Shown: positions 822-31,462 of the stretch, piece by piece
How the letters are laid out: each line of letters opens with the position of its first letter
Position numbering within the stretch: position 1 is the first letter of the stretch
From: Buxus sempervirens
Taxonomy: Eukaryota; Streptophyta; Magnoliopsida; Buxales; Buxaceae
Direction: 5' to 3'
DNA length: 64,000 nucleotides
Assembly: GCA_947561395.2 (NCBI GenBank)
Contig: OX387194.1
Coordinates: forward strand, 30,948,036 to 31,012,035
The notes under the pieces: generated by a model
Database searches by the model: none
Told to the model about the DNA's origin: nothing
The model's input: only the letters and a program-made list of their open reading frames with translations
Made by a program: the position numbers and the translations under genes

Positions 822-867
822 ACATTAGAAAGCAGAGTATATGATACGAAATACCAAGATGCATGAT

Positions 868-8219: not shown

Positions 8220-10025
8220 TGTGAGACATGGAAAAATCAATTTAATGATTTCCTAATCATCACAGGGGATTATATAAAACAAAGAGTCGCCACCATTCAA
8301 TTTAGGTGTGAATGGACACCAAAATATTAAATAAGCACAAAAGGCAAATTTTAGGGCAAAATATCCCTCCTAAAAAAAACAACCAGAGATGGGTAAGGGG
8401 ATTAAGTTATGAACAGGGGAAGGTGTTAGGCACCCCTATTCATCCACACAAGGTGGTTGCCAGGTATTGTTCATGTTTAAAATAAAGGAAAAAGCTTGCT
8501 ATAAAAATCACAAAAAAGGCAAAAATATATGGTTTTTTCATATGAATAGTCTGATTGATCCAGAACTATCAAACATGATCATACCATTCCTAGGGTTTCA
8601 TGATCAAAATAAAATTGAGATAAAATCAAATAAAATCAATTTAAAGTGAAAAATCCAAAAATCTGGCTTCAAGCTAAATTCTAGAAATCTAGAAAAATAT
8701 GATTTTTATAAAATATTTCAAAATTGAACTTGAATAGTCCAGGACATAGATAAAGCTCAAATTTCACATTAAATCAGAAAATAAAAACCAAAAATACCCA
8801 CATTAATGAAGAACACCAAAAGGGGAGAACTGAGACCGTAGGGTCTTCTCTCAATAATGAAAAACGATTTAAAAACCACATCATGAAACCCTAGAATTTA
8901 CTTTCAGGCTTCTGGATCCAGATCTACCATATTGATCATGATAAATCCAGGATCTTAGCCTAAAACCACCAAAAATCACGAAAACAGTGCTGTAGGTGCA
9001 AAAGTGGCAAAAATCCAAATTTTAGCAAAAAGTGGGGATCTCATGCTATAAACATCATAGATTCATGTAATTCATTCAGATATATCATAAAAAGCATTAA
9101 AACATGATCAAGATATTCAAAACAGCCACATCTCACAGATTATAGCACATGGGGGTCTACCCTACGGATCCACCTGTTCCCCTTTCCCCTAGTTCTCTCT
9201 TCACATTTTACGGTTAGAGAGACTCTTGAGGTACTTAGAGATAGGTTTGGGTATACAAACACAATCACAGGCCTTATTCTATGAAAAAAAAGAAAAAAAC
9301 AGATATGGGGTTCTATTCTAGGGATCCACCTGTTCCCCTTTCCCCTAGTTCTCTCTTCACGTTTTACGGCTAGAGAGACTCTTGAGGTACTTAGAGACAA
9401 GTTTAGGAATACGAAAATAGATATGGCCTTATTCTACAGCAATAGAGATGATCCTATCACTTCTAGAATTGAAGACAGAAAATAAAAAGGGATAGGGGAC
9501 TTACCTGGATTGAGCAGGCAGGCAGCAAGAGTTCTTTCTCTTCTCTTGGAGCTTCTTAGAATTCCTTGGACTCAAAATTTCGTGGCCTTTTGCTTGAGAA
9601 AAGAGCCTTTATTTATAGGCAAGCACAGGGGCAAGACTGGTCCAGAAGGATATATCCTAATCCTCAGGATAGAGGGAGAATTGGAGATAATGCCCATCCA
9701 TAGCCAACCAAGGTGGCTTCAGCGAATAAAATACGTAATTCGCTCATTTAAAGATATATTGGATAAAAGATAAAGCTCGGAAATCGAGAGAAGGACAAAA
9801 CTCGCACGTGTTTTTAGTAACCGTAAATGCACTACAGTCCAACGGTGACCGTATAGTTTCCACGGGCGCGCCTGACCGTAGAGCGATCTCGGGCGCGATC
9901 GGCCCGTGAATGAAATACGGGCAAAGCCTGTTTATTCAATTTTCATGCATTTTTGACCTGTTTTAAGCTCTAATTACATGTTTTTATTATTTTCTCATTT
10001 TGTAGTGATATTTGGGGTGTCTACA
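8220..10025 (-). repeat. R1 3' LTR
   Basis: In the element's sense it begins TGTAGACACCCC and ends CCATGTCTCACA. It contains a TATA box (complement of atttata, 9611-9617) and, about 75 nt past the likely start, a consensus splice donor CAG|GTAAGT (complement at 9499-9508). The palindrome array at 9816-9935 lies about 200-330 bp upstream of the TATA box. Confidence 0.93.
9816..9935. repeat. 28-bp-period palindrome array in the 3' LTR
   Basis: Four dyad units start at 9834, 9862, 9889 and 9917, preceded by a partial CCGT unit. Each unit is 18-19 bp, of the form ACGG...CCGT or CGGGC...GCCCG, separated by 9-bp linkers. Example: ACGGGCGCGCCTGACCGT. It lies in the presumed U3 upstream of the LTR TATA box. 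Confidence 0.85.
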
Positions 10026-10040
10026 GCTGCCCCCTCTTTG
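10026..10040 (-). other. Polypurine tract of R1
   Basis: Minus-strand CAAAGAGGGGGCAGC abuts the start of the 3' LTR, the expected site of plus-strand DNA priming. Immediately beyond it, 10044-10061, is a perfect palindrome GTAATTGGAACCAATTAC. Confidence 0.85.
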
Positions 10041-10364
10041 CTGGTAATTGGAACCAATTACAAGCAGAGAGCAAAAAGACCCACCAATTGCACTTTCTGA
10101 GATTTTTGTCTAATCAATTGCACTTTGCAAGGATTAAATGGATGATTTTTAAAAAAAAATTTATTGTGGAAGATTTGCTAAGAAATCCCTCAGCTTAAGG
10201 GCCAAATCCTCCTCTCTCCTCTCACTGAGCACTTGTGGGCTATGAAGTGAGATTTGAGACAAAATTTTTAAACAAAAGTGGGTAAGGTGGCAATCCTTGC
10301 AACTTACAACTAATATGAACATTAATCTTTTGAAAAGTGTGGAGAAAATAATAAAATGTGCAAT

Positions 10365-10481
10365 TTTTGGCTTCGCCCGTATTTCTATCACGGACAGATG
10401 CTGCCCGTAGCTGGTTCACGGACGGTCGGGACCGTAGTGCTTTCACGGGCATCTAATGCCCGTACTGATTTTACGGATTTT
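10365..10481. repeat. 28-bp-period palindrome array upstream of antisense gene 1
   Basis: Dyads start at 10390 (ACGGACAGATGCTGCCCGT), 10418 (ACGGACGGTCGGGACCGT), 10445 (ACGGGCATCTAATGCCCGT) and 10473 (partial), with a partial unit ending at 10380. Linkers are 9 bp. The array precedes the presumed promoter and 5' UTR of the gene that starts at 11876. Confidence 0.85.
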
Positions 10482-11875: not shown

Positions 11876-14760
11876 ATGGCCCATCTTCGATCAGCATCCC
11901 AAGATCCTGCAGATGAGCCTTCCTCTTCGAGGGTTAGGCGAGATCCTGCTGATGTGGCCTCGTCTTCGAGGGCCGAGAGGGATTCGGATTCTGATGTCCC
12001 TGATCTTCCTTCTGGGGATTCGCGTGAGGCGACCCCAGAGGTATACTCTAACCTTTATGAAATTTCATATTCTTTCCCAAAATACATCCTCCTGATTCTT
12101 TCCTTCCTTCAATTATTTTCTTTTAGCCGGCTGTTGAGGCTTCTGGCGGAGATAGGAGCCGTAGCAGGCGTCGGGCTGGAGGCCGAGATGGAGGCCATGA
12201 TGAGGGCCGTAGAGGAGGCCGCAGAGGGGGCTGTGGCAGAGATGATGCTAGGACCAGGGTTGAGATCCCTGAGAAGGTGGCTGCCCAGATTAGGGATACC
12301 GACCTCTTGCATGGCTTGAGGACTCATCCCTCAGCGTGTATTAGGGCGGATATCCCTTTGGAGTATGCTATGTCCCACTATAGAGGGAGCTGGGCCAGTT
12401 TCATTAGATTCTTGGGAGCGTGCAGTTCGGCCTACCGTCGGGAGCTAGGCTTGTATGGTTTTGTATGTTTATCACCATCCCGGACGTGCGCTTGGATCGG
12501 GCCCTCATTGCTGCACTGCTGGAGAGGTTTTTCCCGGAGACATTGAGCTTCCACTTCCCAGATATTGAGATCGGGATCCGGCCTTCTGACTTCACCCTTA
12601 TCACTGGGATTAGGATGATCGGTGATGTTATTCCCGAGATGGCGATGCCAGAGGCTGATGAGGTTGCTGGTTATCTTGGATATATCGTGCTGCCTCCAGA
12701 GGCCTGGGATCGGGGGAGAGCGAGATTGTCTCTGACATGGTTGAGAGAGACTTTCAGGAGGAGGCAGTTTGGTTAGCTTGCTGCCAGTGATCATGTTTTC
12801 CCATTCGCCTTCTGATTCCTCTTTCTATATATCATGGGATCTTGTTTCTTCCCAGAGGACACGACTTCAGTTAGTCCTCATTTTCTGAGCTTACTGGGAG
12901 ATCTTCAGCGGGCGAGGAGGTATGCATGGGGCCCGCTCATTTTTGGTACTATTTTGGCCGGCCTTCGCCGATCAGTGAGCAGCCTCTCTACTTCCAGAGG
13001 GGCTGGAGTTGGGTGCAGATTTTTCTGGCCTTTTCTGCAGGTGAAATGTCTATTTCTCTTTTCTTTCTTTCTCTTTCTCTTTCTCTTTTTCTTATCTCTC
13101 CTTTTCTATTCCTCTAACTCTTTTCTTCTTTTTGCAGTTTTTTGCTAGGGTTTATATACCCTATTTCCGTCCTATCTCTACGATGTCTAAGGAGACATAT
13201 CCCATGGCACGTAGATGGTGTCATGTAGAGCACGACTCTGAAAAGAGTCGTCCCAGGTCCGCCCGGGCCCACTTGGACAGGTTGTACCGGTCTGAGGTAA
13301 TCTTCTTTAATTTCTCTACTTTCTTCTTTTCTTTTCTTCCTGGATCACATATCTGATGTCCTGTTCTGTTTTTCAGCTATTTGTCCCCAGGATGGAGGAC
13401 ATTCATGAGGTACTGGCCCTGCAGGCAGCCAGAGATGATGCATTTGTCCCTGACCAGAGACGACAGAGATACCAGTTCTTTATTGGTCAGCTGGGCAGCA
13501 TTTGGTACTGCGGCGAGCGCTTCTTCTTTCAGCATGTGGGAGAGCCACGGATTCCTGCCATCCCGCCAGATACTACTCCTTCCTACCCTCCTATGCCTGT
13601 TGATCCTGCCCAGTTCCTAGGTTGGACTGAGGCAGAGACTTTATTAGAGGAGGGTGACTATGATGCTTGGTTCAGGCGAGCTTCAGTTGGGTGCCTCATG
13701 CCACCTATGCCTGTCCGTGGCGGAGTCACTGAGATTCGAGGGGTAGTGATTAGGGCCTATGACACCACGGTATGTCTTCTTCCTTTTCACCTTTCTATTT
13801 TCATTTCATCTGAACTTAGCATTTTTCTGACTTTTTTCTTTCCTATTTCAGGAGGCCCAGTTGGCAGAGATCCGGTCTCGATATGCTGATCTAGAGCGCC
13901 AGGGAGATGCTGCGATCGCCGAGCAGGATGCCCTCTATATCACCATTTCAGACCTCCGGGGGCAGCTAGCCAGAGCACAGGGCCAGGAAGGTCCATCTGA
14001 TGCACAGGACTAGGCGGGTCCATCTTACACTCAGGTTAATTTCTTCTTTTATTTCCATTCCTGCTCTTGCATTAGTTTGTCTTGTTCTGACTGAAATTCC
14101 TTTTCTTAGTTTCAGGAGGACACAGCCGGCCCTTCTTCACCTGCTTCACCTGTGCCCATGCATTTTCGGGATGAGGTATTTTCCGTGGCACGGGTGGAGT
14201 TCGTGACGTCTCCCAGTCCAGTAGAGGTTCCTGCAGCAGAGTCCGAGGTCGAGGCTGATATTATACCTGCTGCTGAGGATGTGCCAGAGTCTGCCCCAGT
14301 AGCTGAGGCTGCTCCTGATGCATCTGCTGATGTAGATATGGATTCGGCTATGGACGCCGCTGTGGTAGAGCCTATCGTGGAGGCTGTGGTGATGGAGGAG
14401 GCTACAGCTGATCCTGTAGAGCCCGGTCCTGATGCTGATGTACCTGGGACCTCTGCTCCTGCTAGTCCTGCTATGGAGGATGCCGAGGAGACGCATGCTG
14501 CTGTTGATACGTCAGCGGATTCTTCCCGTACTGATTCTGATGTAGATACTTCAGGGTACGTCCCTCCTGATCATCCCACTGCTGGCCTTGTGCATTTATA
14601 TATGTGGCATGATATTCAGTCTGTTTTGAGCAGGATGACGCGTAGCACAGCCCGCAATGTTGTGCGGCATGTCTTTGAGCGCAGGCGATCTTCAGGCCGT
14701 GGTCGAGGCAGACGAGGAGGCCGTGGCCGTAGGATTCTCTTATGTATATTTGTATTTTGA
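11876..14760 (+). pseudogene. Plant mobile domain (aminotransferase-like) protein gene carried antisense in R1
   Basis: Seven exons can be drawn with GT-AG introns, all phase 0: 11876-12040, 12127-13040, 13138-13296, 13377-13769, 13852-14034 and 14116-14760 (the second may itself be two). The N-terminus is Asp/Ser/Arg-rich, followed by an RG-rich block (GGRDGGHDEGRRGGRRGG). The PMD core follows: VRLDRALIAALLERFFPETL, DFTLITGIR, then LFLYIMGSCFFPE and RRYAWGPLIFGTI, then YIPYFRP. The tail has a helical segment, a long acidic Ala/Val/Pro-rich region and an RGRGRRGGRGRR end. PMD proteins of the MAIN/MAIL group act in the nucleus in transposon silencing and genome stability; PMD copies in Ty3/gypsy elements are known. 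This copy is broken: frame changes at about 12465 and probably at 12405 and 12430, stops at 12774, 12813 and 14011. A coding origin is certain; function of this copy is doubtful. Confidence 0.8.
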
Positions 14761-14935
14761 CAAACTGATGTACTCATTCATATATATATAAAAGAAGTTT
14801 GATTTGTGTTCATTTGTGTACTTTTCTTCTTTCTTTTCAGTTTTTATTACATGAAGAATGTTAAAACAGGAACAGGTGAAGCTTAGGAAAACAAAGAAAT
14901 TAAAACTGCCCAATTTTTTGCATTTTTCGGAAGTA
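14761..14935. other. Short spacer after antisense gene 1
   Basis: AT-rich 3' flank with TATATATATAAAAG and TTTCTTTTCAG-like stretches; no gene. It leads directly into the palindrome array that precedes antisense gene 2. Confidence 0.4.
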
Positions 14936-15074
14936 ACCGTACCTAGACTACGAGCAACCTGTGCCAGTAATATGAACACGGGCGCACTGTGCCCGTAAAG
15001 TTTTCACGGTCACAGCCTGACCGTAGTTGTTATACGGGCACGATATGCCCATATTCAATTTACGGATTTTTCCG
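14936..15074. repeat. 28-bp-period palindrome array upstream of antisense gene 2
   Basis: Unit starts at 14950, 14978, 15006, 15034 and 15062 are exactly 28 bp apart; a partial unit ends at 14940. Units include ACGGGCGCACTGTGCCCGT and ACGGTCACAGCCTGACCGT. The second keeps the dyad through paired changes (G to T on the left, C to A on the right). A TATA box follows 16 bp after the last unit. Confidence 0.88.
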
Positions 15075-15089
15075 CCTTACGATTTTTTC

Positions 15090-15097
15090 TATATAAA
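15090..15097 (+). promoter_or_regulatory. TATA box of antisense gene 2
   Basis: TATATAAA lies 99 bp before the ATG at 15189 and just downstream of the palindrome array, giving a predicted start near 15120-15125 and a 5' UTR of about 65 nt. Confidence 0.65.
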
Positions 15098-15188
15098 CTC
15101 ATAGGGAACGTCATTGTGACACTTTTACTAGTTGGAAAACTCCCTGAGCACGTCTTTTCTCGCTTTCCTTGGCTTCTTTGGCGCTTCC

Positions 15189-16999
15189 ATGGCTTCCCCT
15201 ATGCCGCTTTCTCCTGCTGTTGAATCTCCTCCTGCAAGACAACCTGTTAGATCAAAACCTCCTAATCTCACCAGGTATAACATTGTGGACTCTTTCTATG
15301 ACAGGTGGGTTAACTCCATGACCCTTGATGAGGAGATTCGTTGGGATTCCATCCACTTAGGGCATATCCTACACCTCCCTAAAATTCCCTTTAAGTGGGA
15401 AATTATTGAAGCTTTGATTGGACACTGGGTTCCTGAACTAAATCTTTTTTGGTTTGATGATAAAGAGATGACTCCTACCATAGAAGAAATTGAAACCATC
15501 CTTGGCCTAAGATTTTCTGAAAAAGTTGTGAACCCACCCCTAAAGCTTAGTTATAAAAAAGAGGCTTCCACTTTCTTGGGTATAGGGAAGAAGGACCTAG
15601 GAAATTCTGATGCACTATTGACCTTGTCCAAGACCTTTTTGACTGAAAAACTTCTGAGGAGTGAAGACAAGGATGCCAGGTTTAATGCTTTGACTTTGGT
15701 AGTGGTCAATCAGCTGCTTTTTCCACGGGGTGATGACCAGGTTGACTTAGCTCTCATCTCAGTTATCTGCCAGGTTAGGGAACGCGAGAGGTTGGCCCCT
15801 ATGATCTTAGCAGAGATATACTAGGCCCTTACTGACTGTTATTTCAGGAAGAAGAAGCGCTTCCTTGCCTGCGCCCCTATCCTACAAGTAAAAAATATAC
15901 ATATTTTTTTTTCTTTTCATCTTCTTTTTTTTTTCCTTCTTCTTTTTTTTTTCTTTTCTTCTTCTTCTTCTCTTCTTTTTTCCTTTTTCCTTTTTCTTTC
16001 TCTCTTTTTTTTCTTTTTCTTTCTCTTTTTTTTTTCTTTTTTTTCTTTTTCCTTTTTTTTTCTTTTTTTTTTTTGGAAATAAATTGAAATACCCCTTTTC
16101 TGCAGCTTTGGTTGCTTGACCACCTTAGCCAGGTTGAAGAAATAACTCGCCGCTTCTTTCCAAGATTGAAAGTTCCTGTTTTGATGAGCAATATGGGATG
16201 TCCTAACATCCAAGGTGGCGAGCAAGGCTGGTTCACTTTCTTGGGTACTCTTCAGGATGATCAAGTGAGATGGCCTGGCACTTATCAGCCCACTCCAGAG
16301 ACAGTGATCAGCTTTAGAGATAAAAACTTTCTGGTCCTAGCAGGCTTGAAATCTGTTGTTCTCTATCTTCCTTTGAGGGTTCTTCGGCAGTTTAGAGCGA
16401 TCCAGGGAATTATGATCCCTACTGGATATGAGTAGCTTTTAGGGCCACTTACACCAACCTCCATGGGGCTAACTACTCAATTAACGAAAGAGTGGTCCTA
16501 CGTCCGTTTTTTGCAGGGTCCTGTCTTTTCAGAGTCCCATGTGAAGGATTATCAATTCTGGATCAAAGAGCAGGTGCAGAATCATGCCTCAGTACCAGAA
16601 GATCCTCCTGTGGTTCTTCCTCCTACTTATGAGGACATTCTGGAGTCAGAAAGGGCAACCCATAAGCGGCTTCAACAAATATGGGTACGGGAGGCTCAAG
16701 AGCTTAGGATAAAAGTCCTTGTTCTAGAGAGAAAGCTTGAAGAGCAGAAGTCTGGCCGCATTGCCATGGAGAAGAAACTTGAAGAACAAAGGCAGGCTCG
16801 TCGCTTTGAAGTCCGAGTGATGCGGAAGAAGTATCAAGATTCCTTGGCCGACCTTAGGGCGTTGAAGATTAAGCTTTCTTTTTCAGATGAGGTCATCTCC
16901 TTTTTGAGTGATCCTGATGCAGAGGGTGCTTCTGGAATCATTGCAACTCAGGCAGCTAGGATTAGGGAGCTTGAGGAGCAGTTAGGGAGTAGGGATTAG
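15189..16999 (+). pseudogene. Second PMD-like (DUF7745-like) coiled-coil gene carried antisense in R1
   Basis: The ATG at 15189 sits in a good plant context (TTCCATGGCT) behind a TATA box. Exon 1 is 15189-15887 and exon 2 is 16106-16999; the intron begins GTAAAAAATA, holds a very long T/C tract and ends TTTTCTGCAG. The product has blocks typical of the PMD-like DUF7745 family: LGHILHLPKIPFKWEIIEAL, PELNLFWFD, EMTPTIEEIETILGL, FPRGDDQVDLALI and AEIY-ALTDCYF. The C-terminal 120 residues (about 16640-16990) form a Glu/Lys/Arg-rich coiled coil. Two in-frame TAG codons (15822 and 16433) interrupt an otherwise open frame; both could arise from CAG. It shows no strong similarity to gene 1 beyond the general fold-level pattern, and its biochemical role is not known. 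Confidence 0.75.
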
Positions 17000-17960: not shown

Positions 17961-18809
17961 TCATGGAAAATATCTCTTTACTGTATCAGAGTTAATTGGC
18001 TCAGGAAAATCCTTCCCATCCATTTCTGTTAAGATGAGAGCACCCCCTGATAGGATCTTCTTGACCACATGAGGTCCTTCCCAATTTGGTTTAAACTTTC
18101 CACGAGGATCTTCCAAAAAGGGTAAAATTTTCTTCAATACTAAATTTCCTTCTTGGAAAGTTCTGGGCTTTACCTTCTTATTGTAAGCCCTGGCCATTCT
18201 CTTCTGATACAATTGGCCATGACAAAGCGCTTTTAATCGCTTTTCCTCTATTAGATTGAGTTGATCATGTCTTGATTGTATCCATTCAGCTTTTTCTAAT
18301 TCTGCTTCCATTAGCACTCTTAATGAAGGTATTTCCACTTCCACTGGTAAAACTGCTTCCATTCCATATACTAAGGAGTACGGGGTTGCCCCTGTAGAAG
18401 TTCGAATTGAGGTTCTGTAAGCATGCAGAGCAAGTGGCAGCATTTCATGCCAATCTTTAAAACTCACTACCATCTTCTGAATGATCTTCTTTATATTCTT
18501 ATTTGCTGCTTCTACTGCCCCATTCATCTTTGGTCTATAAGGAGCTGATTTATGATGAGTGATCTGAAATTGTTCACACATCTTCTTCATGTCTTTGTTC
18601 TTAAGGTTTGAAGCATTGTCTGTTACTATGGCACTTGGCAAACCGTAGCGACAAATGATATTGTGCTTCAATAATTTCAGAACGTGGCTACTTGTAATGT
18701 TTGCATATGAAGCTGCCTCTACCCACTTGGTGAAGTAATCAATTGCTACAAGTATAAACCTGTGTCCATTTGATGCCTTTGGAGAGATCATTCCAATGAC
18801 ATCTATACC
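17961..18809 (-). CDS. R1 integrase catalytic core and C-terminus
   Basis: Continues pol in the same frame after a TAG at 18807-18809 (SMTSP-stop-GIDVIG); family members usually have Trp there. The core keeps the DDE residues: Asp in GIDVIG, Asp in IVTDNASN and Glu in NGAVEAANK. It is followed by the WHEMLPLALHAYRTS and GATPYSLVYGMEAVLP blocks and a C-terminal region with GNLVLKKI and GPHVVKKIL. Integrase inserts the cDNA into host DNA. The upstream stop means this copy can make it only by readthrough, or not at all. Ends at 17961 with a natural stop. Confidence 0.9.
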   Translation of the reverse strand, partial: GIDVIGMISPKASNGHRFILVAIDYFTKWVEAASYANITSSHVLKLLKHNIICRYGLPSAIVTDNASNLKNKDMKKMCEQFQITHHKSAPYRPKMNGAVEAANKNIKKIIQKMVVSFKDWHEMLPLALHAYRTSIRTSTGATPYSLVYGMEAVLPVEVEIPSLRVLMEAELEKAEWIQSRHDQLNLIEEKRLKALCHGQLYQKRMARAYNKKVKPRTFQEGNLVLKKILPFLEDPRGKFKPNWEGPHVVKKILSGGALILTEMDGKDFPEPINSDTVKRYFP

Positions 18810-21572
18810 CTACGGAGATGTCATACTGTGTAATTCACTTGGGGGTGCATTCTTGTTATCCGCGTACACTTGGCATAAATGACACCTTTTAACGTGTATA
18901 TAGCAATCATGCTCCATAGTCGACCAGTAATATCCCAATCGCAGAATCTTCTTGGCAAGCATATGCCCATTCATATGGGGTCCACACACTCCTCCATGTA
19001 TCGTTTCAACTATTCTTTTTGACTCAGTCTTTGCAACACATCTGAGTAGTATATCATTGTGTGATCTTTTGTACAACTGACCACCACTTAGTAAGAACTG
19101 TTCTGCCAGCCTCTGTACTGTTCTTTTCTCTGTAGAGGTGACATTTTCTGGCAAACTTCGATCATTTAGGAAGTTCTTAATGTCTTGAAACCATGGTACA
19201 TCTTCTTCTGGGGTTTCTTCTAGAACAAGGCAATAAGCTGGTTCATCTCTGACTTCAATTTCCAATGGTCTAATATCAACACCTTCTGGCATATTGACCA
19301 TTGAAGCCAATGTTGCTAGAGCATCTGCAAACTGGTTTTTGGCCCTTGGCATATAATTGAAGGAAATTCGAGTAAACTTGGTGCTTATTTCTTCCAAATA
19401 CTGGTGATAGGGGATCAATTTGTGATCCTTGGTTTTCCATTCACTAGTTGTTTGGAAGATGATAAGACTCGAATCTCCATATACGTCAAGTTCCTCTACT
19501 TCATGGTCTAAGGCAGCTTGCAACCCAATTATGCATGCTTCATATTCTGCTATATTGTTTGTACATTGGAACCTTAGCTTTACTGCGATTGGGATATGTG
19601 CCCCATTTGGCTTGATCAGAACAGCCCCTATTCCATTTCCATTCATATTGGCGGCCCCATCAAAAAACATTTGCCATGAGCTTTCACCTTCTTCCTCTTC
19701 AGCAAACAGGATTGCCTCATCAGGGAAGTTGGTCTTTAAGGGTTGGTATTCTGGTAAAGGGTGTGCAGCTAAGTGATCTGCAATGGCTTGACCCTTAATG
19801 GCCTTCTGTGTGATATAGGTGATGTCAAATTCAGAGAGTAACAATTGCCACTTTTCTGTTCTGCCAGTTAAAGCTGGTTTCTCAAATAGATACTTCAAGG
19901 GGTCCATTAGGGATATCAATAAGGTGGAATGACTAAGGAAATAATGCCTCAGTCTTTGAGTTGCCCACACTAAAGCACAACAAGTCTTTTCTAGAGGGGA
20001 ATATTTTGCTTCATATTCTGTAAATTTCTTACTCAGGTAGTAAATCGCCCTCTTCTTTCTGCCTGTATCGTCATGTTGTCCTAAGACACACCCCATTGAC
20101 GTCTCTAAAATAGACAAGTATAAAATCAATGGTCTTCCTGGAGTTGGTGGCACTAGCACAGGTGGGTTCAATAAATACTCCTTTATTGTGTCAAAGGCTT
20201 CTTGGCAATCATCATTCCAAACTGTTGGGTTATTCTTTCTTAGAAGTTTGAAAATTGGTTCACAGATAGCGATGAGCTGTGCTATGAACCGGCTTATGTA
20301 CTGAATCCTTCCAAGAAAACCATGAACTTCCTTCTCCGTCTTGGGTGATGGCATTTCAATGATTGCTCTGGCTTTAGCTGGGTCAATCTCAATTCCCTTC
20401 CTGCTTACTATAAAGCCCAACAATTTTCCTGATGTAGCCCCAAAGACACATTTCGCAGGGTTAAGTCTTAGACTGTATTTCCTAAGCCGGTCAAACACCT
20501 TCTTCAAATTGATCAAGTGGTCTTCTTCTTCACATGATTTGGCTATTATATCATCCACATAAACCTCCATCTCCTTATGGATCATATCATGGAATAAGGC
20601 TGTCATGGCCCGCTGGTAGGTTGCCCCAGTGTTCTTAAGTCCAAATGGCAAGACAGTGTAGTGGAAGGTACCCCAAGGGGTGATAAAGGCTGTCTTCTCT
20701 TGGTCTTCCTTAGCCATCTTAATTTGATTGTATCCAGAAAACCCGTCCATGAATGAGAATAGACTATGTACAGCAGTGTTGTCCACCAAGATGTCAATAT
20801 GTGGAAGTGGAAAATCATCCTTTGGACTTGCCTTATTCAAGTCTCTGTAATCTACGCACATTCTGACCTTTCCATCCTTCTTTGGTACTGGCACTATATT
20901 TGCAAGCCATTCAGGGTATGTGGAGACCGCTAAGAATCCGGCTTGGAATTGTTTAACCACTTCATCTTTGACCTTCGACGTCCATTCAAGTTTTAACCTT
21001 CTCAGTTTCTGTTTAACTGGCTTAGCATCTGGTAGAATAGGTAGCCTATGCACAACCATGTCTGTGTCTAGCCCTGACATATCCCGATACGACCATGCAA
21101 ATACATCTTCATAGTCGGCTAAGAACCGTATCATTTCTTCCCGCTGTACCTCAGATAGACATACCCCAATCTTTACTATTTTTGGGTCATCTTCGGTCCC
21201 TAGGTTTATTGATATGGTTTCTTCAATATTGGGTTGGACCCCCTTTTCATGACGCTCTAATTGATATGTGATTTCTTTTGGAACGTCGTCTTCTTCGTCC
21301 TCGGTCTCTTCCTCAACCCCCATTAGATCAAAGTCGAGCTCAAAGTCGAAGTCATACTCATCCTGATCCAATTCCGTTTGCTTATATGGTTCATAAATGG
21401 TTTGGATCTTTTTGAAAAATTTATCTTTTCTAGAAAAAATTGAAAAATCTTTTTGTGTTTTTTGAGAGCCTTCTACAAAATCTTTCCCTGAACACGAAGG
21501 CTCATTAAAACCTTCAGGAAAAGGGCTTTCCACTAATGGAGTTTTTTTTTGGAAGCCATGTCTGTTTGCCAA
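18810..21572 (-). CDS. R1 pol: reverse transcriptase, RNase H, second RNase H, integrase zinc domain
   Basis: 920-codon frame. After an acidic linker, RT spans roughly residues 180-480 with NIVPVPKKDGKVRMCVDYRD, LPFGLKN and the YVDD catalytic box near residue 337. RNase H follows (MGCVLGQHD); its first catalytic Asp appears replaced (LSILETSMG, where relatives have LDNSMG). A second RNase H near residue 630 (MFFDGAANMNGNGIGAVLI, YGDSSLI) is the Tat-lineage hallmark. The end holds the integrase HHCC zinc domain (HGGVCGPH...CHLC, about residues 862-905). The frame overlaps the end of gag-protease by 40 nt in the -1 frame; the initial Met is only the first codon of the open frame, since pol is normally made as a fusion. 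Confidence 0.93.
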   Translation of the reverse strand: MANRHGFQKKTPLVESPFPEGFNEPSCSGKDFVEGSQKTQKDFSIFSRKDKFFKKIQTIYEPYKQTELDQDEYDFDFELDFDLMGVEEETEDEEDDVPKEITYQLERHEKGVQPNIEETISINLGTEDDPKIVKIGVCLSEVQREEMIRFLADYEDVFAWSYRDMSGLDTDMVVHRLPILPDAKPVKQKLRRLKLEWTSKVKDEVVKQFQAGFLAVSTYPEWLANIVPVPKKDGKVRMCVDYRDLNKASPKDDFPLPHIDILVDNTAVHSLFSFMDGFSGYNQIKMAKEDQEKTAFITPWGTFHYTVLPFGLKNTGATYQRAMTALFHDMIHKEMEVYVDDIIAKSCEEEDHLINLKKVFDRLRKYSLRLNPAKCVFGATSGKLLGFIVSRKGIEIDPAKARAIIEMPSPKTEKEVHGFLGRIQYISRFIAQLIAICEPIFKLLRKNNPTVWNDDCQEAFDTIKEYLLNPPVLVPPTPGRPLILYLSILETSMGCVLGQHDDTGRKKRAIYYLSKKFTEYEAKYSPLEKTCCALVWATQRLRHYFLSHSTLLISLMDPLKYLFEKPALTGRTEKWQLLLSEFDITYITQKAIKGQAIADHLAAHPLPEYQPLKTNFPDEAILFAEEEEGESSWQMFFDGAANMNGNGIGAVLIKPNGAHIPIAVKLRFQCTNNIAEYEACIIGLQAALDHEVEELDVYGDSSLIIFQTTSEWKTKDHKLIPYHQYLEEISTKFTRISFNYMPRAKNQFADALATLASMVNMPEGVDIRPLEIEVRDEPAYCLVLEETPEEDVPWFQDIKNFLNDRSLPENVTSTEKRTVQRLAEQFLLSGGQLYKRSHNDILLRCVAKTESKRIVETIHGGVCGPHMNGHMLAKKILRLGYYWSTMEHDCYIHVKRCHLCQVYADNKNAPPSELHSMTSP

Positions 21573-24500
21573 ACAAACGCGGCTTCAAAAGTAAGGGGAG
21601 TTTCCTCCCAATTATTCAGAATAAAAGAATCTGGGGCAGGGATACAAGCCTGCTCCTCAAGCTCAGGGTCTGCATCAGAGATCACCAGTACTGGGTGAGT
21701 TGCGTCGCCTGCTTCTCCTGTAGGGCTGGTCCCAGATGGAACTTCTACTGCAGCCCAATCAATAAAGGGTAGCTCCTCTGCTACTTCTTCTTGTTTTCCT
21801 TCTGTCATGGCAAAAAATGATCCAATGTCTTCTGAAAAGTCCTGCTCTTGTTCTGCCTGTGGCTCAGGCCCACCCGATGCTTGTGGAGGTAGAGGTAGAA
21901 CATATGGTTGTGCGGTTGAGGATTTGGGTTTCTGGAATGGGTTGACATTGTAGTATGGAGGTTTGGACTGATCCTCAGGAGGAGACAGTTGAATCATGTG
22001 AGAAAGCTTTGGAAAAGTTTCCCTGATATGCGGGAATTTTATGTCTTCTATTTCCTTCTGACTTTTCCATTTTCTTGGCTTGGACCCCAATCCTGCTCTA
22101 TGAACCATCTTCTTAACCTTTATTGGTTCTATCCTTCCTTCCAGGTTAACCCCCAGACCTTTTCCAGGGTGAAAGTTGTACTTTTCCAGCACATTCTTGA
22201 CCATCCTCTCAGCACAGGTCAACTTTCCTTCTTTTTCCTGATACCCCCCAGGTATGAAATTAACAGTTTCAAATTGGAAAGAGTGAAATGTCATCTTATC
22301 AGCAGTCATTTCCATGTTAATACAAGGTACATCAGGGGACCACATGGGGGGAACCAAATTTTCGGCTAGGACGGTAATCACCTTTTGCCCTCTAATATAT
22401 TTGACTCTTTGGTGGAGGGTAGATGGTATGGCCCTAGATGTATGAATCCACGGCCTTCCTAGGAGTAGGTTGAAGGCTGCAGGTATATCCATCACCTCAA
22501 ATGTGATGTTAAAAATATACCGTCCAATTGTGACCGGCAGTTCAACCTCCCCTAGGGAGTGTGTTTTAGAGCTGTCAAATGCTCTTATGATTCTTCCATT
22601 TTGTTTTATTTTGTTTCGCTCCAAATTGAGCTTAACAAAGGTTACTAATGGGCAGACATTGAGAGCCGACCCATTATCAATCAAGACCCGGGCTATCATG
22701 CAACCCTTACTGAGTACAGCTATGTGCAATGGGTCAACATGATGGTACCCTGCTGGACTGATTTCAGTCTCAGAAAAAGTTATCACATTGTGGGATAAAA
22801 TTTGACCAACCATCCGGCCTAGTTGGTCTGGTTCAATATTTTTAGGCACATGGGCCCCCTGGAGTATCCTTAACAAGGAGTCCCTATGTTTTTCTGAATT
22901 TAACAATAGGCCCAGTATTGAGATCTGGGCGGGGACTTTGTTCAATTGCTCGACAACATTGAACTCACTCTTTTTTATTATCTTAATGAGGTCAACAGCC
23001 TCACTGTTAGTTACTTGAGGGGCCTCTTCCCCTACCTTGGTCTTGCCTTTATTTTTTTTTTCTTCTTTCTTTTCTTTCTCTGTCTCTTTTTGTTTTTCTT
23101 CCACCCCTACACATTTTCCTGACCTCATCATGAGGTTTACTTCTTCCTTGCTTTCAGCTGCAGGGCATGTAGTGGTAAAAGCTTCACTGTAGTTCCATGG
23201 TACAGCCGATTCAGAGTAGGAAGGCTTGGGGACATTTACCACTAATGGAGGAAGTTTGGACTTGGATGCGGAAGTCTGGGTAAATGGAACATTAATAACC
23301 AGAGGTGGAAGTTGCTTTGATGGAGGAACATTAACAACTAAAGGTGGAAGTTGTTTTGATTGAGGGGTTGTAGAAGTGACTGATGCACTAAGGGGGTCAC
23401 AGTTTATGACCAATGGCGGTTTTGATTGAATGGGTGGAGTAAAAGTGGATGGATTGTAATTAATGACCAAAGGTGGCTTGGCGATGTTCATCTGGGCCAT
23501 GAGGGATGAGACCCGGTCCAAAGATGAGCTAATGTTCTCTGCAGCACTATCATTCTCCTTTGAAATCACATTTACTTCTTTGTCTTCATTTCTCCTGTCA
23601 AAATACACTTTGACCGTTGTCCCTATGGGAGCAATTAATTGAGACGGGTCAAAGGTTATTTTGTCAGAAGAGATGACTCCTATGACATTATATGGGCCTG
23701 CCCCGTGATGCTGGGGCAGTGGGTTTTGTCCAATATCGGTTCTTGGAGGATTGGGAGCCCCTGTATTGAAAGACAGGGTATTCTGGTCTAGTAAATCCTG
23801 AATGGCGTGTTTCAAAGGCCAGCACTTGTCTGTAGGGTGCCCAGGTGCTCCCATATGGTAATCACAAGTGGTGGAAGGGTCAAAATTTCTCCCCTTGGAT
23901 GCATTCGGATTAGGTTCTCTTAAGGTGACATACCCTGCTTTCAATAAAGTGGGCAGCAACTGAGAAGGAGTCATGGGAATAGGGGTGAAAACCCTATTTC
24001 TCCTTGCTGCAAAATAGGCATCCTTTTCCTCCTTAGTAAAAACCCTTTTTTGGTCTGAAGGTGTTGCTGGAACATTAACCCTCATGGGGGCCGGGGTAGA
24101 TGGAGCAGGTGGAGTAGGAAAATGAGCTGGCATGTTGATTTGTATAGGCTTGTTAGGGCCAGATGGTGGCTGTACCATGTTTACCTCACCCTCCTTCTTG
24201 TTCCCATTCTTTTTTATCCCGCTTCCTTTCTTCAGATTAGGGTCTTGCTGACTAACCATGGCAGAGTGGTCAATTATCTTACCTGACCTGATCCCGTCTT
24301 CTATTCGGTCAGCCACTTGAACCAAGGCAGCAAAATTAGTGGTGGTCTGACCCACCAGGTTGCTGTAGAATGGTTGACCCAAAGTGCTGATGAAAGTAGA
24401 AATCATTTCCTGTTCTAGCATGGGTGGCCTGACCTGGGAGGCCGTCTCCCTCCACCTCTTGGCATATTGCCTTACAGTCTCATCCCTTCCCTTGCTCATC

Positions 24501-25078
24501 CTCATGACGTCGTACCTGTCTGGCACGATCTCTGAATTGAACCGGTATTGAGCCAGGAAGGCATCGGCTAGGTCCTTCCATCTTTTGATCTTTCCATGGT
24601 CCAGAGTGGCGAACCATCTTAATGCGGTTCCGGTCAGGCTCCTTTGGAAAAGTTGGATCAAGATACCCTCATCCTGCCCGAACTGGCATAGGGCACCGCA
24701 ATATAACTTTAGGTGGCTCATGGGGCAACCAGTGCCATCATACTTGTCCAAGTCTGGGCACTTAAACTTAGCCGGCAGGTTAACATTGGGGTATAGGCAC
24801 ATGTCTTCAAAATTGGTGCGTCCAAAGTTGTTTACCCCTTTGACTTCCCTTAGTTCATCCTGGATCATTTCCAGTTTTTGCATGAACTTCTTTTCCATTT
24901 CTTCCCTCATTTTTTCCTTTTCCTTAGCCTTTTCTGATTCAACTGTTTCATCTTTGGTCACCATAGGTTCATAAGTGGTTTCATGGATGGGTTCAGGAAT
25001 TGGTTGCACTGGGGGTGGAATATTGATTTGGGGTGGAGGTACAGGGTTGGAAGTGGATGCTTGGTTCTGGGCCTGCAT
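21533..25078 (-). CDS. R1 gag-protease
   Basis: 1181-codon frame. The gag core lies at about residues 90-270 (YDGTGCP, LFQRSLTGTALRWFATLD, YAKRWRE, FISTLGQPF). A zinc-like CDYHMGAPGHPTDKC block is at about 407. A run of short PPLVVNVP/PPLVINVP repeats lies at about 530-640, then a Lys/Glu-rich linker. The aspartic protease follows near 800 with IARVLIDNGSALNVCP (DNGS in place of the commoner DSGA) and FNLLLGRPWIH. A G-patch-like GKGLGVNLEGR block is near 968. The frame ends in an A9 run shared with pol. In-frame sequence continues upstream to about 25263 behind two stops, so the annotated Met is probably internal. Confidence 0.92.
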   Translation of the reverse strand: MQAQNQASTSNPVPPPQINIPPPVQPIPEPIHETTYEPMVTKDETVESEKAKEKEKMREEMEKKFMQKLEMIQDELREVKGVNNFGRTNFEDMCLYPNVNLPAKFKCPDLDKYDGTGCPMSHLKLYCGALCQFGQDEGILIQLFQRSLTGTALRWFATLDHGKIKRWKDLADAFLAQYRFNSEIVPDRYDVMRMSKGRDETVRQYAKRWRETASQVRPPMLEQEMISTFISTLGQPFYSNLVGQTTTNFAALVQVADRIEDGIRSGKIIDHSAMVSQQDPNLKKGSGIKKNGNKKEGEVNMVQPPSGPNKPIQINMPAHFPTPPAPSTPAPMRVNVPATPSDQKRVFTKEEKDAYFAARRNRVFTPIPMTPSQLLPTLLKAGYVTLREPNPNASKGRNFDPSTTCDYHMGAPGHPTDKCWPLKHAIQDLLDQNTLSFNTGAPNPPRTDIGQNPLPQHHGAGPYNVIGVISSDKITFDPSQLIAPIGTTVKVYFDRRNEDKEVNVISKENDSAAENISSSLDRVSSLMAQMNIAKPPLVINYNPSTFTPPIQSKPPLVINCDPLSASVTSTTPQSKQLPPLVVNVPPSKQLPPLVINVPFTQTSASKSKLPPLVVNVPKPSYSESAVPWNYSEAFTTTCPAAESKEEVNLMMRSGKCVGVEEKQKETEKEKKEEKKNKGKTKVGEEAPQVTNSEAVDLIKIIKKSEFNVVEQLNKVPAQISILGLLLNSEKHRDSLLRILQGAHVPKNIEPDQLGRMVGQILSHNVITFSETEISPAGYHHVDPLHIAVLSKGCMIARVLIDNGSALNVCPLVTFVKLNLERNKIKQNGRIIRAFDSSKTHSLGEVELPVTIGRYIFNITFEVMDIPAAFNLLLGRPWIHTSRAIPSTLHQRVKYIRGQKVITVLAENLVPPMWSPDVPCINMEMTADKMTFHSFQFETVNFIPGGYQEKEGKLTCAERMVKNVLEKYNFHPGKGLGVNLEGRIEPIKVKKMVHRAGLGSKPRKWKSQKEIEDIKFPHIRETFPKLSHMIQLSPPEDQSKPPYYNVNPFQKPKSSTAQPYVLPLPPQASGGPEPQAEQEQDFSEDIGSFFAMTEGKQEEVAEELPFIDWAAVEVPSGTSPTGEAGDATHPVLVISDADPELEEQACIPAPDSFILNNWEETPLTFEAAFVWQTDMASKKKLH
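21542..21550 (-). other. A9 homopolymer at the gag-protease/pol frame change
   Basis: On the minus strand nine consecutive A residues follow GCTTCC, four codons before the gag stop, and pol is open in the -1 frame across the same run. It may be a -1 slippage site or a one-base indel in a homopolymer. In Ogre-type elements the protease-RT junction is often an intron instead. Confidence 0.5.
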
Positions 25079-25265
25079 TTGTTGGGCCTACACTTGTTGG
25101 GCCTGTACTGACAGTATGTTCTCTAGCATTCAGGCTAATCCTGCCACTTGTTCTTGGAGTAGAACAACATCTGGATGAGGAGCATCAACTTCATCTTCAA
25201 TGGGATTTATGGCGCAAGCTCTTGATCTGGTTACAGGAGCTATGATTGCAAGTGTATTAGTACCT
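25079..25265 (-). other. Upstream in-frame part of gag with a splice acceptor
   Basis: Reading into gag, the frame NTLAIIAPVTRSRACAINP continues through DEVDAPHPDVVLLQEQVAGL into the Met at 25078, broken by a TGA and a TAG. It starts at an acceptor-like TTTTGTATCCAG (AG at 25264-25265). With the donor in the 5' LTR this suggests a leader intron of about 3.9 kb. No in-frame ATG precedes the stops. Confidence 0.5.
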
Positions 25266-25475
25266 GGATACAAAATAAAGGAAAAAATATCAGTGCCCAA
25301 TTAATCTCATTCACATGCTTAGGAATGCCTATGTGCAAGCTGGGTGAACACGAGTTTGGATTTTTTCTTTATTTGCTTCTTTTTATTTTCTTTTTTTTTT
25401 TGTTTTTTTTTGGTTTTGAATTGAATTGTTGGAATATTCTAGGGCTTCCAACAGGTCCCACAAAAGAGAGAAAGA

Positions 25476-26301: not shown

Positions 26302-26476
26302 AAGGAACCTTTCTCTCACACATTTTTTTTCAATTATTTTGTTTTTGTTTTTGTTTTTTTTTTTGAAGCATTTTATTCAAACTTGTTTCCCTTTATCATT
26401 ATTTGAAGGTTAAAGGAAGATTTTAGTGGGAAAAACTGATTAAAGTTGAATATTCCGAGAAAACTGTATACACAGT

Positions 26477-26600
26477 ACGGTCCAGCCTTGCCCGTATTCA
26501 AATTACGAGCAAGTCGTGACCGTATGGAAAACACGGGCAAGCCTAGCCCGTATAACCAATACGGGCAAGCCCAGCCCGTGTACTAAATGCGGTTTTACGG
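26477..26600. repeat. 28-bp-period palindrome array in the R1 leader
   Basis: Unit starts at 26477, 26505, 26533, 26561 and 26589 are exactly 28 bp apart. Units include ACGGGCAAGCCTAGCCCGT and ACGGGCAAGCCCAGCCCGT; the 9-bp linkers are AT-rich. Confidence 0.88.
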
Positions 26601-27802: not shown

Positions 27803-27820
27803 TCTCCAGCAGAGTCGCCA
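27803..27820 (-). other. Primer-binding site of R1
   Basis: Minus-strand TGGCGACTCTGCTGGAGA starts two bases inside the 5' LTR. It closely matches the complement of the plant tRNA-Arg 3' end used by Ogre/Tat elements, apparently with two mismatches. Confidence 0.8.
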
Positions 27821-27822
27821 GT

Positions 27823-29637
27823 TGTGAGACATGGAAAAATCAATTTAATGATTTCCTAATCATCACACGGGATTATATAAAACAAAGAGTCGCCACCATT
27901 CAATTTAGGTGTGAATGGACACCAAAATATTAAATAAGCACAAAAGGCAAATTTTAGGGCAAAATATCCCTCCTAAAAAAAAACAACCAGAGATGGGTAA
28001 GGGGATTAAGTTATGAACAGGGGAAGGTGTTAGGCACGCCTATTCATCCACACAAGGTGGTTGCCAGGTATTGTTCATGTTTAAAATAAAGGAAAAAGCT
28101 TGCTATAAAAAGCACACAAAATCACAAAAAGGCAAAAATATATGGTTTTTTCATATGAATAGTCTGATTGATCCAGAACTATCAAACATGATCATACCAT
28201 TCCTAGGGTTTCATGATCAAAATAAAATTGAGATAAAATCAAATAAAATCAATTTAAAGTGAAAAATCCAAAAATCTGGCTTCAAGCTAAATTCTAGAAA
28301 TCTAGAAAAATATGATTTTTATAAAATATTTCAAAATTGAACTTGAATAGTCCAGGACATAGATAAAGCTCAAATTTCACATTAAATCAGAAAATAAAAA
28401 CCAAAAATACCCACATTGATGAAGAACACCAAAAGGGGAGAACTGAGACCGTAGGGTCTTCTCTCAATAATGAAAAACGATTTAAAAACCACATCATGAA
28501 ACCCTAGAATTTACTTTCAGGCTTCTGGATCCAGATTTACCATATTGATCATGATAAATCCAGGATCTTAGCCTAAAACCACCAAAAATCACGAAAACAG
28601 TGCTGTAGGTGCAAAAGTGACAAAAATCCAAATTTTAGCAAAAAGTGGGGATCTCATGCTATAAACATCATAGATTTATGTAATTCATTCAGATATATCA
28701 TAAAAAGCATTAAAACATGATCAAGATATTCAAAACAGTCACATCTCATAGATTATAGCACATGGGGGTCTACCCTACGGATCCACCTGTTCCCCTTTCC
28801 CCTAGTTCTCTCTTCACGTTTTACGGTTAGAGAGACTCTTGAGGTACTTAGAGATAGGTTTGGGTATACAAACACAATCACAGGCCTTATTCTATGAAAA
28901 AAAAGAAAAAACAGATATGGGGTTCTATTCTAGGGATCCACCTGTTCCCCTTTCCCCTAGTTCTCTCTTCACTTTTTACGGCTAAAGAGACTCTTGAGGT
29001 ACTTAGAGACAAGTTTAGGAATACGAAAATAGATATGGCCTTATTCTACAGCAATAGAGATGATCCTATTACTTCTAGAATTGAAGACAGAAAATAAAAA
29101 GGGATAGGGGACTTACCTGGATTGAGCAGGCAGGCAGCAGGAGTTCTTTCTCTTCTCTTGGAGCTTCTTAGAATTCTTTGGACTCAAAATTTCGTGGCCT
29201 TTTGCTTGAGAAAAGAGCCTCTATTTATAGGCAAGCACAGGGGCAAGACTGGTCCAGAAGGATATATCCTGATCCTCAGGATAGAGGGAGAATTGGAGAT
29301 AATGCCCATCCATGGCCAACCAAGGTGGCTTCAGCGAATAAAATACGTAATTCGCTCATTTAAAGATATATTGGATTAAAGATAAAGCTCGGAAATCGAG
29401 AGAAGGACAAAACTCGCACGTGTCTTTAGTGATCGTAAATGCACTACGGTCCAACGGTGACCGTATAGTTTCCACGGGCGCGCCTGACCGTAGAGCGATC
29501 TCGGGCGCGACCGGCCCGTGAATGAAATACGGGCAAAGCCTGTTTATTCAATTTTTATGCATTTTTGACCTGTTTTAAGCTCTAATTACATGTTTTTATT
29601 ATTTTCTCATTTTGTAGTGCAATTTGGGGTGTCTACA
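27823..29637 (-). repeat. R1 5' LTR
   Basis: Near-identical to 8220-10025, with about 30 differences by eye. It retains the TATA box (complement near 29225-29231), the CAG|GTAAGT donor (complement near 29110-29119) and the palindrome array. It would drive the minus-strand transcript of gag-pol. Confidence 0.93.
29446..29547. repeat. 28-bp-period palindrome array in the 5' LTR
   Basis: Units start at 29446, 29474, 29501 and 29529 and match those of the 3' LTR. Two base differences restore the dyad relative to the 3' LTR copy: ACGGTCC here against ACAGTCC there, and GACCGGCCCGT here against GATCGGCCCGT there. Confidence 0.85.
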
Positions 29638-29663
29638 AGTCCCATATTGGGTTTCCGGGTGAC

Positions 29664-31462
29664 TGTAAGACATGGAAAAATCAATTCAATGACTTCCTAA
29701 TCATCACACGGGATTGGTTAAAAACAAAGAGTCACCACCATTTTGTTTAGGTGTGAATGGACACCAAAATCTTAAATAATCACAAAAAGGCAAATTTAGG
29801 GTAAAAATAGCCCTATTAAAAAAAACTAGAGATGGGTAAGGGGATTAGGTTATGAACAGGGGAAGGTGTTAGGCACCCCTATTCATCGACACAAGGTGGT
29901 TGCCAGGTATTGTTCATGTTTTTCAAAGGAAAAAAGGCTTGCTACAAAAATCATAAAAAATCACAAAAAGACAAAAGTGTATGGTTTTTTCATATGAATA
30001 GCCTGATTGATTCAGAACTTTTAAATATGATCATACCATTCCTAGGGTTTCATGATTAAAATAAAATTGAGATAAAATCAAATAAAACCAATCTAAAGTG
30101 AAAACTTAAAAAATCTGGCTTCAATTTAAATTCTGGAAATCTAGAAAAATATGATTTTTATAAAATATTGTAGAATTGAACTTGAACAGTCCAGGATACA
30201 GGTATAGCCCATGTTTCACATTAGATCAAGAAATCAAAACCAAAAAAACCCACATTGATGAAGAACATCAAAATGGGAGAACTTAGACTGTAGGGTTTTC
30301 TCTCAAGCATGAAAAACAACTCAAAAACCATCTCATGAAACCCTAGAAGTTATTTTCAGGCTTTTGAATCCAGATCTATCATATAGATCATGATAGATCC
30401 AAGATCTTAGCCTAATATCACAAAATTCACGAAAACAGTGATGTAGGTGCAAAGATTTGAAAAATCCAATTTTTAGAAAAAAAAGGATTTCATGCTATAA
30501 ATATCATGGATTCATATGATTCATTCAGATTCAATCACAAGATCATTAAAACATTAGTAGGATATCCAAAGTAGCCATATCTCACAGATTAGAGTACATG
30601 GGGGTTTACCCTACGGATCTACCTGTTCTCTTTTCCCCTAGCTCTCTCTTCACGTTTTACGGCTAGAGAGGATTCTTGAGGTACTTGGAGACAGGTTTAG
30701 TGATACAAACACAATCAAAGGCCTCATTCTACAAGAAAGGAGAAAAACAGATATGGGGTTCTATTTTAGGGATCCACCTGTTCCCCTTTCCCTTAGCTCT
30801 CTCTTCACCTTTTATGGCTAGAGAGTATTCTTGAGGTACTTGGAGGCAGATTTGGGAATACAAGTATAAGAAGGCCTTATTCTAAAGCAATGGAGAAGAT
30901 CCTATTATTTCTAGAATTGAAGACAAAAAATAAAAAGGAAAAGGGACTTACCTGGATTGAGCAAGCAGAGCAGTAGGGATTCCTCTCTTCACTTGGATCT
31001 CCTTAGACTTCAAATTTTCATCGCCTTTGCTTAAGAATCTCACCTCTATTTATAGGCAAACCCAGGGGTAAGGCTGGTCCAGAGGGATATACCATGATCC
31101 ACCAGATTGGATTAAAAATAAGGATAATGCCCATCCATGGCCAACAAGGATAATTCGAATAAATAAATAAATAAATTCAATCACCTAGAGAGATATTTGG
31201 ATGCAGATAAGGCTTAGAAATCGAGCAAGGATAAAATTCGCAAAAATCTCCTGTGCCCATATATAAATTGCGGGCAAGTCATGTCCGCATTCTTATTACG
31301 GGCACGGTATGTCCGTATATAAAATTCGGGCACGACCAGCCCGTAGGTACAATACGAGCACTGCTTAAATGATGGAATTTCATGCATTTTTGACCTATTT
31401 TAAATCCCAATTAATATTTTCAATTATTTTCTCATTTTGTAGTGCAATTTGGGGTGTCTACA
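29664..31462 (-). mobile_element. Solo LTR I, R1 family, older copy
   Basis: TGTAAGACATGG to GTGTCTACA with GTGAC duplications at 29659-29663 and 31463-31467. It aligns throughout with the R1 LTRs but is clearly more diverged. It retains the splice donor (complement near 30949-30958), a TATA-like box near 31055 and a palindrome array. Confidence 0.9.
31256..31366. repeat. 28-bp-period palindrome array in solo LTR I
   Basis: Units start at 31270, 31298, 31326 and 31354, exactly 28 bp apart, with bases different from the R1 LTR array but the same dyad form (ACGGGCACGGTATGTCCGT, TCGGGCACGACCAGCCCGT). Spacing is kept although sequence has drifted. Confidence 0.85.

Follow-up and report, generated by a model that had tools for sequence, protein, structure and literature searches.

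The window analysed here, a 64,000-nucleotide (64 kb) stretch of Buxus sempervirens DNA (contig OX387194.1), contains a minus-strand long terminal repeat (LTR) retrotransposon of ~21.4 kb, designated R1, with arrays of short CGG-core repeats that we propose may be binding sites for a dimeric factor specific to the element lineage. The 3' LTR of R1 lies at 8220..10025 (minus strand, 5' end at 10025) and the 5' LTR at 27823..29637 (minus strand). The two differ at 30 of 1810 aligned sites, and AGTCC is present on either flank of the element. An older related solo LTR (29664..31462, minus strand), flanked by GTGAC, is 18% diverged from the R1 LTR. Gag, protease, reverse transcriptase (RT), RNase H, a second RNase H and integrase are encoded at 17961..25087 (minus strand) in three interrupted open frames; a domain search gave the order RVT_1, RT_RNaseH, RVT_3, integrase zinc-binding and, in the next frame, rve. 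R1 thus has its domains in Ty3/gypsy order and an extra RNase H placed between the first one and integrase, the mark of the Tat clade (Ogre/Retand; PMC6317226). RVT_3 in R1 is probably an archaeal-type RNase H.

Between integrase and the 3' LTR are two plus-strand, that is antisense, genes. Gene 1 (11877..14757) carries RG-rich and acidic stretches and a piece of a plant mobile domain (PMD; E 2.6e-8, 33.9 bits against a cut-off of 34.9), and is without a single open frame. Gene 2 (15189..16996) carries a DUF7745/PMD domain (DUF7745 E 6e-15; PMD E 9.1e-9) and, by eye, an apparent coiled coil, its frame being broken by one stop. None of the R1 pol and the two antisense genes is a single open frame. 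Stop-free DUF7745 frames do exist in other copies. An antisense open reading frame with TRP28 (PF04195) occurs in 97% of Retand clusters (PMC11963269); no TRP28 match at E ≤ 1 was found in the seven R1 antisense pieces scanned, and by this mark R1 does not group with the Retand lineage. Minus-strand gag fragments at window positions 153-2076 are 39-49% identical to R1 gag.

Six arrays were found where the original prediction had placed them: in both R1 LTRs, in the leader, before each antisense gene and in the solo LTR. A scan of the window for ACGGGCA-N5-TGCCCGT returned 12 dyads with two mismatches or fewer, every one inside four of these arrays (gene 1, two; gene 2, four; leader, four; solo LTR, two), while the two R1 LTR arrays consist of weaker units with 3-4 mismatches. 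Order-1 Markov controls (n = 20) gave mean dyad numbers of 0 at up to two mismatches, 0.7 at three and 7.75 at four. The arrays are genuine and lie well beyond chance expectation. Exact 28 bp recurrence, as predicted for three arrays, was confirmed for those of gene 2, the leader and the solo LTR; the R1 LTR and gene-1 arrays each contain one 27 bp step.

The predicted unit, an inward-facing 19 bp palindrome, is out of phase with what is repeated. What recurs is two half-sites in everted orientation, TGNCCGTA-N7-TACGGNCA, or CCG-N11-CGG in its core, with TACGGNCA as the half-site. Among the 44 half-sites of the five distinct arrays, with registers set by hand before scoring, the C, G and G of CGG are conserved in 42, 42 and 40 cases; the base after CGG is G in 26, T in 12 and A in 6, and the following C is present in 39. 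When scored with a matrix from the other arrays against window positions 32000-60000 on one strand, 42 of the 44 reached p ≤ 0.001, and the two that did not are the termini of the leader array (0.021 and 0.0035). All five distinct arrays have a TGCCCGTA-type half first and a TACGGGCA-type half last. Because each begins and ends with an outward-facing half, an array is composed of whole everted pairs, numbering 4, 4, 5, 5 and 4. Outward halves stand at both start and end in 47 of 50 arrays from the window plus 200 kb of contig C1, and in 18 of 20 once arrays at least 75% alike are removed; homologous arrays share descent, so these counts are non-independent trials. In local non-redundant arrays the everted CpG spacing is 13 in 74 of 74 cases (12-14 allowed), whereas the inward spacing between pairs is 15 (49 cases) or 14 (7 cases). 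With an invariant everted and a variable inward spacing, the everted pair is best taken as the unit; the array ends, the fixed everted spacing and the genome-wide N7 described below are the grounds for rejecting the inward palindrome.

The 3' LTR array (9818..9923) has four everted pairs with one half decayed to ACAG, and the 5' LTR array (29430..29535), also of four pairs, starts 107 bp inside the LTR. Four pairs each make up the array before antisense gene 1 (10374..10479) and that of the older solo LTR (31254..31360). The array before antisense gene 2 (14934..15068) has five pairs and is conserved in a related gene-2 promoter, L073. Five pairs also form the leader array (26461..26595), whose terminal halves are decayed in R1: the low-coordinate terminal half reads TACAG in R1 and TACGG in three relatives (L049, L051 and L053), the sequence of a fourth, L060, stopping short of it. 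The leader array is adjoined by 34-48 bp tandem repeats (25471-26300) built around CTGAAATTCAAAGGCTTTCAG, itself a dyad. Of 27 CCG-N11-CGG matches listed in the window, 17 are in the R1 and solo-LTR arrays, four in a class-3 array (below), two at 34.0 kb, and four are scattered.

The original prediction placed an array at every transcription unit. A TATA box accompanies the arrays of gene 2 and the LTRs; beside those of the leader and gene 1 a simple TATA pattern found none. The gene 2 TATA box (15090..15096, plus strand) lies 27 bp past the CpG of the last half-site, and the same TATATAAA follows the array in L073. TATA boxes of the LTR arrays lie ~205 bp downstream on the minus strand, at 29229 (5' LTR), 9617 (3' LTR) and 31054 (solo LTR). 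Position within the LTR is equally regular: 16 of 17 arrays near a recognized TGTAGACACCCC-type LTR start begin 102-107 bp inside it, the remaining one at 1677 bp. A second element type, which we call B-type, has an LTR of 2,475 bp with a CCTATAAATAGA TATA box 19 bp past the array end.

Counts were then made across the window's own genome (676,531,615 bases, 247 contigs; one genome only). Perfect pairs of the R1 kind, GCCCGTA...TACGGGC (class 1), number 11,284, compared with 61 for the reversed control, and with spacings of 3-11 allowed the spacing was N7 in all 50 pairs listed. For a one-and-a-half-unit pattern the forward and reverse counts are 13,767 and 13,644 (9 and 9 for the reversed pattern), and for the looser CCG-N11-CGG-N11-CCG they are 28,546 and 28,631 versus 2,450 and 2,651. 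In a sample of 45 arrays outside the window, picked by motif presence, the flanks of all 45 match R1-type or B-type elements, the best match being an R1-type LTR in 14, the R1 leader in 4, the gene-2 promoter in 1 and a B-type LTR in 26; one classed as LTR (L052:6683) is also at the expected place of a gene-1 promoter. The B-type element L065 has, downstream of its LTR, a DUF7745 gene that is 32-38% identical to gene 2 over matched stretches and apparently in sense orientation. Three elements (L049/L050, L053/L054 and L059/L060) have gag-pro matches only between their LTR arrays at E ≤ 1e-4, with no RT, integrase or antisense-gene match at that threshold, and they retain arrays in the LTR as well as in the leader, which, should those arrays be functional, implies a factor acting in trans. 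One B-type element (L055:4219 to L056:6626) sits within the RT of an R1-type element. Beyond this genome, the pattern search of viral_contigs found no array relatives, and an RT search there found none among 5 pattern stretches; in genome_contigs the pattern search gave 18 stretches in bacterial and archaeal records, against a chance expectation of roughly a handful, and a protein database search for relatives gave 157 candidates, none at E ≤ 0.001.

By inspection, at least three half-site classes were recognized. Class 2 (AACCGC-N9-GCGGTT) and class 3 (TATCCG-N11-CGGATA) both retain the CCG-N11-CGG geometry. A class-2 element, covered by L064 and L069, is related to R1 (gene-2 exon 71% and gene-1 PMD piece 67% identical), and in the regions covered it carries class-2 pairs in its LTR and in both antisense-gene promoter regions. 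Ten pairs were found there at up to one mismatch, nine with N9 and one with N10; those regions contain no ACGGGC pair (L069 has one ACGGTC-type match), and R1 contains no GCGGTT pair at up to one mismatch. The class-1 array in L064 belongs to an R1-type LTR (L064:2684-4333, 86% identity) inserted within the gene-2 tail. Class-2 arrays also precede gene 2 in L071 and L074, while L073 has a class-1 array and the R1 TATA box. AACCGC-N{5,13}-GCGGTT occurs 6,847 times genome-wide (reversed control 1,028), and among 50 listed with 5-13 allowed the spacing was N9 in 44, N10 in 5 and N13 in 1.

Class 3 is represented in the window by an array at 36743..36986, in which three of four TATCCG-N11-CGGATA pairs follow a 39 bp period and a minus-strand TATA box (36730) lies beside them; the adjoining sequence at 37.2-38.0 kb matches the outer portion of several B-type LTRs at 72-77% identity. 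In the window and the stretches L049-L074, the gap was 11 in 21 of 26 class-3-like pairs (up to one mismatch, 3-19 allowed), as against 0.1 in shuffled windows. The genome holds 42,340 class-3 pairs (reversed control 146), with N11 at all 91 distinct places listed (7-15 allowed) and within-cluster steps of 39 (45 cases), 78 (7), 77 (2), 38 (2) and 103 (1). Twenty of the 34 clusters listed form four elements with five array positions each, three fit a fifth element and 11 were not assigned. Array offsets in the four elements (0 / 3.7-3.9 / 15.0-15.6 / 19.5-19.8 / 20.1-20.7 kb) parallel those of R1 (0 / 2.9 / 14.5 / 19.1 / 19.6 kb). The 3' end of the fifth, located in L063 by coordinate subtraction, has an LTR that begins TGTAGACACCCC like that of R1, with a class-3 array starting 91 bp inside. 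Mixed class 3/class 1 pairs (TATCCG-N11-CGGGC) are rare, at 84 forward and 84 reverse places (168) beside 42,340 class-3 and 11,284 class-1 pairs of like halves, the reversed control giving 859 and 903 with a CpG content that differs from that of the pattern. At window 34013-34074 there are two class-3-like pairs 39 bp apart (TATCCGG...CCGGCTA and GATCCGG...CCGGATC).

Between the R1 5' LTR and the older solo LTR, half-sites differ at 16 of 64 bases, N7 spacers at 17 of 28 (Fisher P = 0.0018) and centres at 6 of 14. The two R1 LTRs diverged after insertion, and the differences between their arrays are C/T or G/A: 3 in the half-sites (64 bases), 1 in the centres (14 bases) and none in the spacers (28 bases). 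The halves are thus conserved for as long as the lineage lives and decay in the resident copy. Halves are 72% identical both within and between arrays; spacers of different arrays match at 31%, the composition level being 30%, while within arrays likeness is 39% (versus 31%) for spacers and 45% (versus 28%) for centres. Neutral tandem amplification of a short functionless palindrome would fit the tandem layout and this internal similarity of spacers and centres, but is hardly credible given that halves stay alike between arrays whose spacers do not, that they outlast the spacers between LTR lineages, and that five positions match across different half-site classes. The original prediction also held that dyads are kept by paired changes as linkers and centres vary. 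Halves are indeed conserved over spacers; the paired changes, on the other hand, are not borne out, with partner agreement no higher than in shuffles for inward pairs (P = 0.19 at position 6 and 0.10 over all positions, 17 pairs; with relatives added, 0.053 and 0.58, 56 pairs) or everted pairs (P ≥ 0.15). This bears on hairpins in RNA or single-stranded DNA, which might act as small-RNA sources or in packaging or processing: palindromes of maize Sireviruses attract small RNAs (PMC10760457), and the six arrays form more stable folds than shuffled sequence does (z -1.9 to -6.8). Inverted repeats of any such kind are, however, expected to do so, and it is the identity of the halves that is conserved rather than their pairing. 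The lack of significant covariation favours readout as DNA, and with LTR and gene-2 arrays upstream of TATA boxes and a spacing that is nearly invariant, we consider a hairpin function very improbable.

A stronger alternative, credible though to our minds doubtful, is that the arrays bind dimeric host transcription factors such as LBD/LOB proteins, different lineages having adopted different paralogues, with the PMD genes as passengers or otherwise employed. Several plants have Ty1/copia Sireviruses, unrelated to these elements, in which CGG-CCG palindromes likewise lie upstream of TATA boxes and env; by our own count 9 of 13 tabulated Sirevirus motifs include a CGGNC half like that of class 1 (PMC2829016), and the LBD consensus is GCGGCG (PMC4999203). 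Arrays also persist in elements that lack PMD genes, and class 1 is common to R1 and a B-type element despite very different DUF7745 proteins. Yet an element's arrays change class jointly while preserving their geometry, which would require several host paralogues reading the same N11 with different flanks, and all 45 arrays sampled outside the window are in these elements, though this is a sample drawn by motif rather than a survey of host promoters.

We favour the reading that the arrays are bound by a trans-acting factor, dimeric and specific to the lineage, that co-regulates the promoters of the element and is probably encoded by its PMD/DUF7745 genes; judged jointly, with all its parts, we regard this best explanation as evenly poised between right and wrong. 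Fixed spacing, sequence-specific halves, no significant compensation, promoter position and mostly homotypic pairs all point to homodimer sites. Each array would be a cluster of 4-5 putative sites at which a dimer touches two outward-facing CGG-core half-sites, and stacking at 28 bp (class 1) or 39 bp (class 3) fits cooperative binding. In their fixed spacing, specific halves and diverged spacers the sites behave like those of a dimer, as originally proposed, and they are common to the LTR and to the stretches ahead of the two antisense genes. With arrays at the LTR promoter, the leader and both antisense genes, one factor could activate the entire element at once, as a self-specific activator or anti-silencer, rather than a repressor, that would serve gag-only elements too. 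Bases flanking the core would set at least three specificities, each element examined relying chiefly on one of them. The most likely source of the factor is the element itself, through an antisense PMD/DUF7745 gene or, in B-type elements, the sense DUF7745 gene. If the factor is self-encoded and diverges, the arrays of an element should change in concert, and the concerted half-site change between related lineages strongly supports the comparison with VANDAL elements drawn originally.

Several observations weigh against this lineage-specific factor. L065, with its distant DUF7745 protein, shares the R1 half-site, while the 71% gene-2 relative uses class 2. Two of five sampled DUF7745 genes, of another type (L070 and L072), have no array within 700 bp upstream, L070 having one lone CCG-N11-CGG in that interval. 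A simple TATA pattern has no match beside the leader or gene-1 array, and the class-3 gene-1 and gene-2 positions are presumed from layout. Nine local class 1/class 2 mixed pairs, beside 50 class-1 and 16 class-2 pairs of like halves, make these two classes less sharply separate. We found no demonstration of DNA binding by PMD/DUF7745 proteins in the available portions of PMC7156037 and PMC9899485; the AlphaFold model of gene-2 exon 1 has a pLDDT (predicted local distance difference test) of 38.9, and no relative was found by sequence in the PDB at E ≤ 1.

Part of this is known from other systems, the closest precedents being the Sirevirus motifs and VANC/VANDAL. CGG-CCG dyads before the TATA box are an established plant retrotransposon feature, described in Sirevirus LTRs as multiple CpG-rich dyads upstream of a conserved TATA box, with a second cluster before env in some elements, reminiscent of the extra R1 clusters (PMC2829016). 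R1 likewise has multiple CGG-CCG dyads upstream of its LTR TATA box. Unlike the Ty1/copia Sireviruses, however, R1 has the Ty3/gypsy order, and the arrays here, in Tat elements, consist of everted pairs with a fixed N11, are found in the leader and ahead of antisense genes as well, and belong to three or more half-site classes that change in concert. VANC proteins of Arabidopsis VANDAL elements recognize short motifs repeated in non-coding parts and specific to lineages, often as tandem repeats (VANC21, YAGTATTAY; VANC6, AGTTGTCC and AGTTGTAC; PMC5735166). The R1 motif, too, is repeated through the element and differs between related lineages; VANC, though, is an element-encoded, demonstrated DNA binder of 8-9 bp motifs, whereas here paired half-sites occur in LTR retrotransposons and the binder is a candidate. 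Retand, Grande and RIRE2 resemble R1 in having antisense genes between pol and the 3' LTR; Grande gene23 has its own promoter, and a DNA-binding regulator has been proposed as the antisense product (PMC11963269, PMC7264820). Those genes carry TRP28 and the R1 genes match PMD and DUF7745, and we found no shared promoter motif reported in the available portions of the two papers. Ogre elements with a PMD (57% of Ogre) have an additional RNase H (aRH) between RNase H and integrase and a PMD in extra open reading frames; R1 differs in having two antisense genes, and no promoter motif for Ogre was found in the part of PMC6317226 at hand. The PMD proteins MAIN and MAIL1 are tied to a promoter motif, DOWN (CATGCAGTTT; PMC7156037, PMC9899485), which by eye differs from the R1 half-site and was rejected as the identity of the arrays; for MAIN/MAIL1 direct binding is not demonstrated in those portions. 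A partial literature search found no description of arrays like these from Tat elements, nor of their sharing with antisense-gene promoters, nor of class switching.

Elsewhere in the window, an open frame at 42907-43989, which presumably encodes the C-terminus of a family 3 glycoside hydrolase, lies near duplicated sequence (45.5-47.8 and 49.7-51.8 kb), and tandem repeats of 147 bp and 73 bp occur at 59172-59685 and 61752-62248.

More broadly, and tentatively, since we hold it with slightly less than even confidence, PMD/DUF7745 proteins of Tat elements may be self-specific DNA-binding regulators that read CCG-N11-CGG through a common CGG core. They would then have diversified, within a single plant genome, into three or more specificities with little overlap, and would tie the genomic-RNA promoter to the promoters of their own antisense genes. 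The function of Tat-type antisense genes has been called unknown (PMC7264820, PMC11963269); if true, this would supply one, and would hint at how host PMD proteins became gene regulators. The shared, switchable arrays make that function directly testable. If confirmed, plant LTR retrotransposons would run VANDAL-like lock-and-key circuits in very large numbers: within 677 Mb the three patterns of pairs occur 11,284 + 6,847 + 42,340 times (reversed controls 61, 1,028 and 146).

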